Assembly: GCA_007132505.1 (NCBI GenBank)
Contig: SLOM01000211.1
Coordinates: 1 to 32,134, forward strand
Source: Candidatus Sumerlaeota bacterium
Lineage (GTDB): Bacteria > Sumerlaeota > Sumerlaeia > SLMS01
Reading direction: 5' to 3'
DNA: 32,134 nt
The translations under genes and the position numbers were made by a program. The notes below the pieces were generated by a model. The model searched no databases. It was not told the origin of the DNA and saw only the letters and a program-made list of their open reading frames with translations. Shown one piece after another: positions 13,621 through 19,807 of the stretch. Position 1 is the first letter of the stretch; each line of letters begins with the position of its first letter.

Positions 13621-14640
13621 TCAGTAGGTGAGCACGGCCCCGAGGACCGACTCCGGCGCCCGTTGCGCTTTTTCGTAGACCGCCGAGGCGCGCTCGATGG
13701 GGAGACGGTCGGTCACGAGGGGCGAGACCTGCACCTTGCGCTCGGCGAGCAGGTTGCAGAAGCAGCCCATGTTGTCGCGCTCGGTCCAGCGTGCCAGGGC
13801 GCGTGGGTAGCCGGCGCCCTTGACCTCGAAGTCGCGGTCCCCGGCGCCTTCTCCCCCGCCGAGAGCCGAATGCAGGGTCAGGCGCTTCTCCACCAACAGC
13901 TCCAAGTCGGTCAGCCCATTGACTGCCGTGCCCAGCACGATCATGCCGGCGGGGCGCAGGAGGCTGATGGCCAGGGGCAGGGACTCGGGGTTCTGTGCCG
14001 TCGCCACCAGTGCTGCGTCGGCGCCGTGCCCGCCCGTCAGGGCATCCACTGTGCGGATGAGCCCGTCGTCGTCCGGCAGGAAGGTCTGGGAGATGCCGAT
14101 TGTGCGCATCTTGTTGAGGCGGAATTCGGAGGGATCCACGAGCAGGGGCGTCGCCCCGGCGGCCCGAACGAGCTGTGCGGCGAGCAGGCCCATCAGCTCA
14201 CCGCCGATAATGAGAACGACTTCCCCCAACTGAACGCGGGCACTTCGCACCAGGTGGAGCGCGGCGGCGCCCTGTCCGGCGAAGGCACCCTCCTCGTGGT
14301 TGACCTTCTTGGGCAGCTCCACGGCCAGGTTCTCCGGCACGACAAGCTGTGCGCCGTGATAGACGTAGGGATTGCCGGCCACGGCCACGCGCACGCCGGT
14401 CTTGAGAGTACGGACCGAGGGACCGACCTCCAGCACCGTGCCGCTGGCACATTCGCCAAGCGGGACGCCGTCCTCTCCACGCTTGAGGCCGCGTGGTGCC
14501 TCCTTGAGGACCTGCAGCTCGTCGGGCAGCGTGAGGGCGGAGTGACTGACCCGTACGCTGACAAAATTCCGCCCCATCCGCGGTTCCGGAAGGTCCACCA
14601 CCTTGGGCGAACCGGATCGGTGTGCGATCACGACTTTCAT
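13621..14640 (-). CDS. MDR-superfamily oxidoreductase, like the N-terminal domain of bi-domain MDR/Gfo-Idh-MocA oxidoreductases
   Basis: PLGECASGTVLEVG, EEGAFAGQGAAALHLVRSARVQLGEVVLIIGGELMGLLAAQLVRAAGATPLLVDPS, GYPRALARWTERDN. Confidence 0.75.
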   Translation of the reverse strand: MKVVIAHRSGSPKVVDLPEPRMGRNFVSVRVSHSALTLPDELQVLKEAPRGLKRGEDGVPLGECASGTVLEVGPSVRTLKTGVRVAVAGNPYVYHGAQLVVPENLAVELPKKVNHEEGAFAGQGAAALHLVRSARVQLGEVVLIIGGELMGLLAAQLVRAAGATPLLVDPSEFRLNKMRTIGISQTFLPDDDGLIRTVDALTGGHGADAALVATAQNPESLPLAISLLRPAGMIVLGTAVNGLTDLELLVEKRLTLHSALGGGEGAGDRDFEVKGAGYPRALARWTERDNMGCFCNLLAERKVQVSPLVTDRLPIERASAVYEKAQRAPESVLGAVLTY

Positions 14641-14827
14641 CGGAATGCCATCCCTTCCTTGCGGAAATGGGTGCCGTGCGGGCGGTAGGGGGGTACTCCA
14701 CGCCGCTCGTGCGTCCCGGCGGCGGGAAGCCGGCAATAGTCACCCTTTGGCCAGTGGCCAGTTTCACCCGCCCGGCGGGCGGATGGGCAAGCCCCGAAAG
14801 CTCCCGCACCGTGCCGGGAGGTGCTTC

Positions 14828-17153: not shown

Positions 17154-18686
17154 ATGCCGAAACCGCTCGTTGGGGTGGTGCTGAGTTCACGCTCCGAATT
17201 CAACATCATGCGCAGGGGACTTGAGTTGCTGCGTATGTTGGGGGTACCATACACAGTAGAGGTGGTCTCAGCTTCCCGGGGGCCGGACAAACTGACACGT
17301 TTTGCCTCCCAGGCACCTGACCGCGGCATCGAGGTGCTCGTGTGCGGGTCCGGGGGATCGGCGCTGGTGGCGGGGATGCTGGCCAGCCATTCGCAACTGC
17401 CTGTGGTGGCGGTCCCGATTGATTCAAGCCCCCTGCGCGGGCAGGACGCGCTCTTCTCCATGGCCCAGATGCCCCCCGGGGTGCCAGTGGCGACGGTGGG
17501 GATCAACAGCTCGGAGAACGCCGCGCTGCTCGCCACACGCATCCTGGCCATCAAGTATCCCAAGTTCCGCTCCACACTGGCGCGCCATTGCGGTGCCCTT
17601 TCGGACCGTCTGGAGGGCACGCGCAGGGAACTCGTGGGCGAGTACGCGGACCTCTGCGACCCGGCACGCACTGCTGCCCCGAAGCTGCTCGACAGCTCCA
17701 TGGAGGTGGAAACCGATCCGGCCGGCGAGGAGATTACCCCAAATATCTCCGAGGCGGAGACGCCGCCCGCCGCCACCGAGGTCATCCGCCCGGGAGCAGC
17801 CTCCGCCGGGAGTTCGCACCTCGGACTCTCCGGCCGCCTCATCAAGACACCGACACCACAGGAGCCGGGCACCGTGACCGAGGACCCGGCGTTGACCGAG
17901 GACCTGACGCGGGTCCGCTCCGCCGGCTCCCGCGAGCGGAAGGACGACCTCCCACCGCCGCCGGAACTCGAGGACCTCAGCCCCGGGCCGGAGACGGCCG
18001 CGCTCGGCGGCAGTCCGGACACCCGGGAGGTCATCGAAACCAAAGTCTTCGCGATAGATGCCAAGGCACCGGACGAGGACGTGCTTTCCCACGCCATGAT
18101 GGTCCTGATCGAGGGCGGCATCGTCGCTTTCCCGACCGACACGGTGTACGGCCTTGCGGCGGACGCCTCCAACCCGGAAGCGGTCCGCCGTCTGTACGAA
18201 ACCAAGGGGCACGAACCACAGCGTAAGAACCTTTCCGTGCTGCTCCATGCGCAGCAGCAGCTCGACGAGCTGGTGCGGGAGGTGCCGCCCGAGCTGGAGA
18301 CAGTTCTGGAGCGCTACTGGCCCGGCGGACTGACGGTGCTCTTCTTCAAGCAGGCGGCGGTGCTGGGCACCATCACCGAAACGCCGTCCATCGCGGTGCG
18401 CATTCCGGACCACCCGGTGGCCCTCCGGCTCATGGAACTGGTGCAGCGCCCGCTCGCGGTGATCAATGCGGCGCTCCCGAACAAGCCGGCCGCCGTGACC
18501 GCCGAGGAGGTACTCGAGCGCTTCGACTCGCGGGTTCATTGCGTACTCAACGCCGGACCGTGCGACTCCAAGCGTATATCCACGGTGCTCAGCGTGCTCA
18601 GCGAGCCCTTTGAAATCCTGCGCGAAGGGGTCGTTCCCGCAGCCGAGTTGCGCTCGATCCTCGGCGACAAGGTGCGGGTGAGTTAG
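17154..18686 (+). CDS. Fusion protein: PurE-like domain + acidic Pro-rich linker + Sua5/YciO/YrdC (TsaC-like) domain
   Basis: PurE-like: VGVVLSSRSEFNIMRRGLELLRMLGVPYTVEVVSASRGPD...PLRGQDALFSMAQMPPGVPVATVGI. YrdC-like: GGIVAFPTDTVYGLAADASNPEAVRRLYETKGHE...IAVRIPDHPVALRLMELVQRPLAVINAALPNKPAAVTAEEV...FEILREG. Confidence 0.85.
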   Translation: MPKPLVGVVLSSRSEFNIMRRGLELLRMLGVPYTVEVVSASRGPDKLTRFASQAPDRGIEVLVCGSGGSALVAGMLASHSQLPVVAVPIDSSPLRGQDALFSMAQMPPGVPVATVGINSSENAALLATRILAIKYPKFRSTLARHCGALSDRLEGTRRELVGEYADLCDPARTAAPKLLDSSMEVETDPAGEEITPNISEAETPPAATEVIRPGAASAGSSHLGLSGRLIKTPTPQEPGTVTEDPALTEDLTRVRSAGSRERKDDLPPPPELEDLSPGPETAALGGSPDTREVIETKVFAIDAKAPDEDVLSHAMMVLIEGGIVAFPTDTVYGLAADASNPEAVRRLYETKGHEPQRKNLSVLLHAQQQLDELVREVPPELETVLERYWPGGLTVLFFKQAAVLGTITETPSIAVRIPDHPVALRLMELVQRPLAVINAALPNKPAAVTAEEVLERFDSRVHCVLNAGPCDSKRISTVLSVLSEPFEILREGVVPAAELRSILGDKVRVS

Positions 18687-18703: not shown

Positions 18704-19807
18704 ATGAAAGTCGTCCACCTCACCGCCCCCGACACGATCACCGTGAGCAACTTCCCGGTCCGCTGTGAATTCGGCCCGTGCGAATTGCTGCTGGAGCCGA
18801 CCCTGGTGGGTCTGACCGGCAGCGACCTCCTTCGCTACCGGCTGGGACCGCCCATCCAGAACGGATTCCGGCAGCCCCACATCCCCGGCGGGGAGTTCGT
18901 GGCCCGCGTGGCCGCCTGCGGGCGGGGGACGGCCAACCGGGGGCTGCTCGGCAAGCGCGTGGTGGGAAATCCCGTCTCGCCCTGCATGAAATGCGAATGG
19001 TGCCTGGAGGGGAACCGGCATCAGTGCCCGAACGTGCGGGTGCTCGGCTGGCCGCCGGTCAACGGAGCCCTGCGCCAGCGGTTTGCCTGGCCAGCGGACC
19101 TCTGCATCGAGGTCCCGGATTCCATCCCGGACGAACTGGCAGTCCTCGTCGCCCCGATTTCCCTCGCGCTATCCATTGTGGACAACGCACAAGCAACGAT
19201 CATGGGGCGGGTTGCCGTCATCGGCGCGGGGCAACTGGGCCTGATGCTCATCAGGATCCTGCGTGCCACCGGCGCTGGGGAGATCCTCTCCGTGGACCCA
19301 AACGGTTACCGGCGGGACCTGGCCATGGAGCACGGCGCCACGGCAGCGTTGGACCCCTACGATGCGCCCGCTTTCATCCGCAGTTGGCCGAGGCGAGGGG
19401 CAGACGTCTCCATTGACGTGACGAATGCCTCGGAGGGCTCGCGCGAGGCCGTGGCCGCAACGCGAGTGGGCGGACGGGTCATCATCGCGGGCATCCCGCG
19501 CGACAACCGCATCCTTTTCAATGCCCGGGACGCGCGCCAGAAGGAGCTCACCCTGCGCTTCGTCCGCCGGCCCTACAAGCCGCTCGACAGGGCATTGCGG
19601 TTCCTGCAGCTTGGCGCGCTCGCTGGAATCGAAAAGCTGATCACCCACCGCTTCCCCATGGACCAGGCGGCGGAAGCCTATGAAGTCATGCGCTTCCAGC
19701 GAGAGGGGGCGATCAAGGCGGTGCTGGAGATGCCGCCCTATAGTCCATCGGAGGAATCCCCGGCGCGCGTCTATACACCGGGACCGGATCCGGCCCCGGA
19801 ATCCTGA
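18704..19807 (+). CDS. MDR-superfamily (zinc-type alcohol dehydrogenase-like) protein
   Basis: Structural zinc motif CMKCEWCLEGNRHQC; Rossmann VAVIGAGQLGLMLIRILRATGAGEILSVD; 17 nt after the PurE-Sua5 ORF. Confidence 0.85.
   Translation: MKVVHLTAPDTITVSNFPVRCEFGPCELLLEPTLVGLTGSDLLRYRLGPPIQNGFRQPHIPGGEFVARVAACGRGTANRGLLGKRVVGNPVSPCMKCEWCLEGNRHQCPNVRVLGWPPVNGALRQRFAWPADLCIEVPDSIPDELAVLVAPISLALSIVDNAQATIMGRVAVIGAGQLGLMLIRILRATGAGEILSVDPNGYRRDLAMEHGATAALDPYDAPAFIRSWPRRGADVSIDVTNASEGSREAVAATRVGGRVIIAGIPRDNRILFNARDARQKELTLRFVRRPYKPLDRALRFLQLGALAGIEKLITHRFPMDQAAEAYEVMRFQREGAIKAVLEMPPYSPSEESPARVYTPGPDPAPES

Follow-up and report, generated by a model that had tools for sequence, protein, structure and literature searches.

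The window, by which we mean the whole 32,134-nucleotide stretch of DNA that was analysed, carries a gene in which a PurE domain and a TsaC/Sua5-like domain are joined in one open reading frame. The features of the gene are as follows:

17154..18686, + strand: PurE-TsaC/Sua5 fusion gene, 510 aa; the start is backed by the orthologue in genus mate G001 (MPKPLVGVV) and by a ribosome-binding-like GAGGA immediately 5' of the ATG at 17154
17169..17585, + strand: PurE (AIRC) domain, residues 6-144 (Pfam), with the fold backed by AlphaFold and superposition
17274..17276, + strand: codon of Ser41, at the site of catalytic His45 in E. coli PurE (alignment)
17364..17366, + strand: codon of Leu71, at the site of His75 in E. 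coli PurE (alignment)
17586..18035, + strand: acidic, Pro-rich linker of ~150 aa, predicted to be disordered (pLDDT mostly <50 at residues 175-294; omega 0.37)
17838..17867, + strand: short linker motif LxxTPxPQEP (L229-P238), conserved in orthologues of the window's order
18036..18683, + strand: TsaC/Sua5-like domain (Pfam match at residues 318-492, positions 18105-18629)
18204..18212, + strand: K-G-H (351-353) instead of KxR, with the Lys kept and the Arg lost (alignment)
18462..18473, + strand: I-N-A-A (437-440) instead of T-S-A-N, the SxN motif (alignment)

Both domains score above the family cut-offs. The PurE domain matches Pfam AIRC (8.9e-47, 158.8 bits, cut-off 30) and NCBIfam TIGR01162 purE (150.2 versus a cut-off of 149.6). 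The second domain matches Pfam Sua5_yciO_yrdC (PF01300; 1.9e-44, 151.8 bits, cut-off 25.1) over positions 3-178 of 178, and thus as a full-length domain, as well as NCBIfam TIGR00057 (162.5 versus 123.2). The coordinates and motifs agree with the first-pass annotation, which had described a single 510-aa PurE-like and YrdC/Sua5 open reading frame, except that the linker measures about 150 aa rather than ~130. Annotation pipelines would label this gene as PurE plus threonylcarbamoyl-AMP synthase, which is probably wrong for the protein in the window. Two zinc-type (MDR) dehydrogenase-like genes flank the fusion, at 13621-14736 (-), assigned by eye only, and at 18704-19807 (+); the downstream one also adjoins the fusion in G001.

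Residues were numbered by alignment to E. coli PurE and E. coli TsaC. The numbering fits the published Thr138 signature residue (PMC10321239). In the PurE domain His45 is replaced by Ser41, His75 by Leu71, Asp19 by Glu and Trp20 by Phe, and E. coli positions 16, 18, 43, 46, 71 and 72 (Ser16, Ser18, Ser43, Arg46 and the glycine pair) are kept. In the TsaC domain the substitutions are Arg52 to His353, Thr138 to Ile437, Ser139 to Asn438 and Asn141 to Ala440. Lys50 is retained (Lys351), but the other three residues of the tetrad are gone. The equivalents of Thr27, Arg117, Ser176 and Arg188 are all retained, and T27, S176 and R188 correspond to the threonine-site residues T33/S181/R195 of Pa-Sua5. 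In this family KxR/SxN serves ATP binding and T33/S181/R195 threonine binding (PMC10321239), and the yeast Sua5 mutants cited in that paper indicate that the ATP-tetrad and threonine-site residues are all needed. The alignments thus bear out the earlier description of substituted motifs in both domains, and they contain no catalytic residues at shifted positions in either domain, an alternative that the first-pass annotation had raised.

The PurE fold is conserved, as had been proposed. The AlphaFold model of the PurE domain has a pLDDT of about 85-95 and superposes on solved PurE with an rmsd of about 1.0 Å and a TM of 0.9. The best structure matches are Acetobacter and E. coli PurE (rmsd ~1 Å over 150 residues), and the predicted monomer fold matches octameric PurE entries. 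The AlphaFold model of the Sua5 domain, made from 3 sequences, is unreliable (pLDDT 41); for this domain the evidence is the alignment along the whole length of the TsaC/Sua5 family. It has no SUA5 domain and is therefore of TsaC-type length.

The genome of the window also encodes stand-alone counterparts. A canonical purE adjoins purK on contig C271, and a full-length Sua5 with intact KxR/PSAN lies on C176; LarB is found on C296 and TsaD on C17. The separate canonical genes that the first-pass annotation proposed to look for are thus present, and the absence of stand-alone copies, which it had named as a refutation of its reading, does not apply. Given the loss of the residues for TC-AMP synthesis together with the strong purifying selection described below, the fusion protein probably does not serve the cell in purine or t6A synthesis.

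The window belongs to the phylum Sumerlaeota, for which NCBI lists one class, Sumerlaeia. We compared 39 genomes of this class, the window's own (G000) and 38 relatives. These are metagenome-assembled genomes of 58-97% completeness, and in any single one of them a stand-alone gene cannot be called missing with certainty. The fusion is an uninterrupted open reading frame in about 30 of the 39, from many families. An alignment-based search of a contig collection returned two Sumerlaeota fusions, the other matches being PurE-only, and a single-sequence search of the collection gave no match to the fusion. In the trees, the fused TsaC-type domains form one group apart from the stand-alone Sua5-type proteins of the class, and the fused PurE domains also form one group, with a modest support of 77. 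We conclude that the fusion has one origin.

Eight genomes (G014, G017, G023, G025, G028, G030, G032 and G034) have no PurE besides the fusion and, HypF apart, no further Sua5-family gene; the same probably holds for G018, in which the fusion gene is split between contigs. In these nine or so fusion-only genomes His45 is kept throughout, the tetrad is kept wherever fully readable and the T/K/R/S/N/S/R set is intact. TsaD-family matches occur in 39 of the 39 genomes, in 33 of them over the cut-off; TsaD needs TC-AMP, so the fusion should supply TC-AMP in fusion-only genomes. A PurK match above the cut-off was obtained in 15 genomes of the class, none of them fusion-only, and PurE without PurK is known to work at high CO2 (PMC3261824). 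The gene purH lies directly upstream of the fusion in G014 and is its divergent neighbour in G010 and G011. Based on this gene content, the intact motifs, the presence of TsaD and the purH neighbour, the fusion very probably started out in the class ancestor as a functional enzyme with both activities. In several lineages of the class, two universal reactions apparently depend on the fusion alone.

His75 is replaced by Ala in four of the nine (G023, G032, G034 and G018) although no other PurE was found there, and this residue thus seems dispensable in these genomes. Class-wide (G000-G038), stand-alone PurE proteins are of two kinds, one with GAGGAAHLPGM encoded beside purK and one with AxGxAAHLAG without purK. 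Stand-alone TsaC proteins of G016 (L191, with a long N-terminal extension) and G013 (L047) are placed either inside the fusion clade or at its base, and are possibly fission products of the fusion.

Adjacent purE and tsaC genes are found well beyond the class. In another phylum, 51 of the 63 genomes in which both were matched have them side by side on one strand. In G062, G067, G068 and G147 the two share one frame with a single stop codon between them; three genomes with this arrangement belong to a further phylum. In G039, the one genome that is from Sumerlaeota but outside the class, purE adjoins a sua5 of the long type. The natural origin of the fusion would be a union of neighbouring genes, most likely of a purE and a tsaC that became linked in frame. 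Candidate fusions in other phyla (G062, G067, G068 and G147), first suggested by open-frame lengths, were rejected as adjacent genes with one in-frame stop, and G090 was rejected because its purE and tsaC are separate genes. No uninterrupted PurE-TsaC fusion was found outside Sumerlaeia in the groups sampled, which do not cover all bacteria. Tight purE-tsaC pairs (L193-L198, L227-L232), often overlapping or one in-frame stop apart, occur in several phyla; we found no earlier account of this conserved link between purine and t6A genes.

The state of the fusion follows the presence of stand-alone genes. The tetrad is lost in 13 of 13 fusions that occur together with a stand-alone Sua5 or TsaC, whereas 17 scorable fusions without a stand-alone Sua5 keep it, the exceptions being G004 (80% complete) and G038 (66% complete). 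On the tree, the tetrad was lost twice independently, in the window's order and in family f6, and both branches carry a stand-alone Sua5. Because these two losses make only 2 pairs, too few for a sign test, we regard the association as a pattern and not as statistical proof. The correspondence is looser on the PurE side. Where a stand-alone PurE is also present, the fusion lacks His75 in 20 of 20 cases and His45 in 14 of 20, and the degenerate fusion of G021 (82% complete) forms an exception. In G012, the stand-alone Sua5-family gene was considered as a TsaC and rejected, as its motifs (KGV, SSS) are YciO-like, and G012 is thus no exception to the rule. This YciO-like protein (L190:174-830; KGV, SSSAS) occurs beside a fusion with an intact tetrad.

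These observations support only in part the earlier claim that the gene is not a normal purine or t6A enzyme. The claim probably holds for the protein in the window, which has lost the residues and is accompanied by stand-alone copies; it does not stand as an oddity of the fusion, since sister fusions are intact. Across the class there is a natural series of states, from intact bifunctional, through one domain decayed and both decaying, to both pseudo but strictly conserved.

All 11 genomes of the window's order have lost His75 and the tetrad from the fusion. S-x-N is replaced by a fixed N-A-[AST] in 11 of 11 orthologues, with Asn438-Ala439 invariant, and the signature residue Thr138 is Ile in the window and Arg in the sister family. 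The equivalents of T27, R117, S176 and R188 are invariant across the order, and that of Lys50 is kept in 9 of 11 orthologues. His45 is patchy (lost in 5 of 11, kept in 6). In the linker, L229, T232, P233, P235, E237 and P238 are invariant in all 11, and the Q of the motif is H in one. The Sua5 domain of the fusion has 64.8% identity within the window's family f1, versus 57.1% for the active stand-alone Sua5, and 64.7% versus 62.2% in the sister family. A comparison of the genus mates G000 and G001 yields an omega of 0.055 in the Sua5 domain, 0.12 in PurE and 0.37 in the linker, and for the two domains omega ranges over 0.03-0.25 in other pairs from the order. Thus, the fusion of the window's order is under purifying selection and is not decaying. 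The fixed N-A-[AST], the near-invariant linker motif, the identities and the omega values together argue that selection maintains a function that differs from the ancestral chemistry or is a reduced form of it. Gene context within the order gave no shared or conserved operon partner that would hint at a new role.

In family f6 the fusion is decaying: the mean identity of its Sua5 domain is 42.6%, versus 64.2% for the stand-alone Sua5 that these genomes also encode, and the fusion is apparently absent in G035. Four f6 fusions (L049, L058, L060 and L062, in G015, G029, G033 and G036) contain a Clp_N domain between the PurE-like domain, which is strongly degenerate, and the TsaC-like one (Pfam 9.8e-14 in G015 and 2.9e-14 in G036), an odd feature for a metabolic fusion.

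We propose that the fusion in the window is probably a displaced bifunctional PurE-TsaC enzyme that no longer acts as a catalyst and has been retained to bind ligands or to serve as a scaffold. In the ancestor of Sumerlaeia, a PurE making CAIR would have been joined to a TsaC making threonylcarbamoyl-AMP. Both reactions may then have passed, in the window's order, to a purE-purK pair and a Sua5-type gene outside the fusion, after which the fusion would have lost the ATP-binding tetrad of TsaC and the PurE histidines, yet stayed under strong selection. A PurE-type oligomeric core could carry TsaC-fold domains on flexible linkers with the threonine-site residues kept, and the protein may now act as a ligand-dependent regulator or scaffold. 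A non-catalytic, ligand-binding protein is favoured by the retention of the threonine set, by the loss of the tetrad and both histidines, and by PDB 2nsh, the entry for E. coli PurE H45Q with nitro-AIR, which indicates that a ligand can bind without His45. The presence of His45 in 6 of 11 orthologues counts against it, as does the Ala in place of His75 in four fusion-only genomes, and PurE activity may persist in some members of the order. The nucleotide-binding sensor suggested by the first-pass annotation gains no clear support here. The TsaC half has lost the ATP tetrad and kept the threonine set; the PurE half keeps several phosphate-side positions.

More tentatively, the protein might be a two-ligand sensor or scaffold, although we hold this to be doubtful. 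Here an oligomeric PurE core would still bind a purine-pathway ribonucleotide, the TsaC-fold domain would bind threonine but not ATP, and LxxTPxPQEP would be an interaction or phosphorylation motif. If so, purine supply would be coupled to threonine or t6A supply.

That the fusion still has one or both ancestral activities, weak or conditional, and serves as a backup PurE/TsaC in which the substitutions are tolerated, is unlikely. The patchy retention of His45, the Lys50 equivalent in 9 of 11 orthologues and the intact threonine set are consistent with such a role, and in E. coli YciO, whose tetrad is altered, TC-AMP formation in vitro does occur, although its rate is more than 4 orders of magnitude below that of TsaC (PMC12506659). 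The protein in the window has, however, neither of the PurE histidines and only one residue of the tetrad, the tetrad being required according to the yeast Sua5 mutants cited in PMC10321239, and intact stand-alone genes are present. We consider it about as unlikely that the N-A-[AST] pocket has acquired new catalysis on a related substrate, such as the transfer of a carbamoyl or carboxyl group without an adenylate. In favour of this, all 11 orthologues share Asn438-Ala439, omega is very low and the TsaC fold serves other carbamoylations in HypF and TobZ (PMC10321239), but no conserved new catalytic-looking residue was identified and no metabolic neighbour is conserved.

A decaying relic heading for loss after displacement is very improbable for the gene in the window. 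Displacement is clear and the f6 fusion does decay, but every copy of the gene found in the window's order has its two domains intact, collinear and under strong constraint, and within f1 the fusion is more conserved than the active stand-alone Sua5. An assembly artefact can be dismissed with near certainty, as the same uninterrupted architecture occurs in about 30 independently assembled genomes from many families.

The displaced enzyme that we favour would offer a clean test case for the conversion of an essential enzyme to a conserved pseudoenzyme after a foreign copy takes over. A full-text search of the open-licence literature found no published PurE-Sua5/YrdC/TsaC fusion, in line with the first-pass annotation, and we provisionally regard the domain architecture as undescribed. 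The window's PurE domain shares its fold with class I N5-CAIR mutase (TIGR01162, PF00731; about 40-48% identity), including Acetobacter aceti PurE (rmsd about 1.0 Å for the predicted structure). It differs in being fused to a TsaC-like domain, in having lost the histidines and in the separate canonical purE-purK of its genome. The second domain is a full-length match to the TsaC/Sua5 synthase profiles (TIGR00057, PF01300) but reads KxH/NxA for KxR/SxN. The Sumerlaeota fusions of G014, G017 and G028 are orthologous to that of the window, with the same domain order and one origin, but have intact His45 and tetrad and are the only PurE and TsaC of their genomes.

HypF and TobZ, in which TsaC-like and Kae1-like domains are combined, provide a precedent for multidomain TsaC-like proteins with other chemistry (PMC10321239). 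Their partner domain is a different one, and HypF-length genes are separate in Sumerlaeia genomes. YciO, a diverged protein that many bacteria possess, resembles the window's domain as a TsaC paralogue with an altered tetrad that is retained beside an active TsaC, but the replacement residues in the window are others and the domain is fused to PurE. In a quick tree, the window's TsaC domain lies inside the Sumerlaeota fusion clade, together with intact fusions, and the YciO-like G012_L190 lies outside it, on a long branch.
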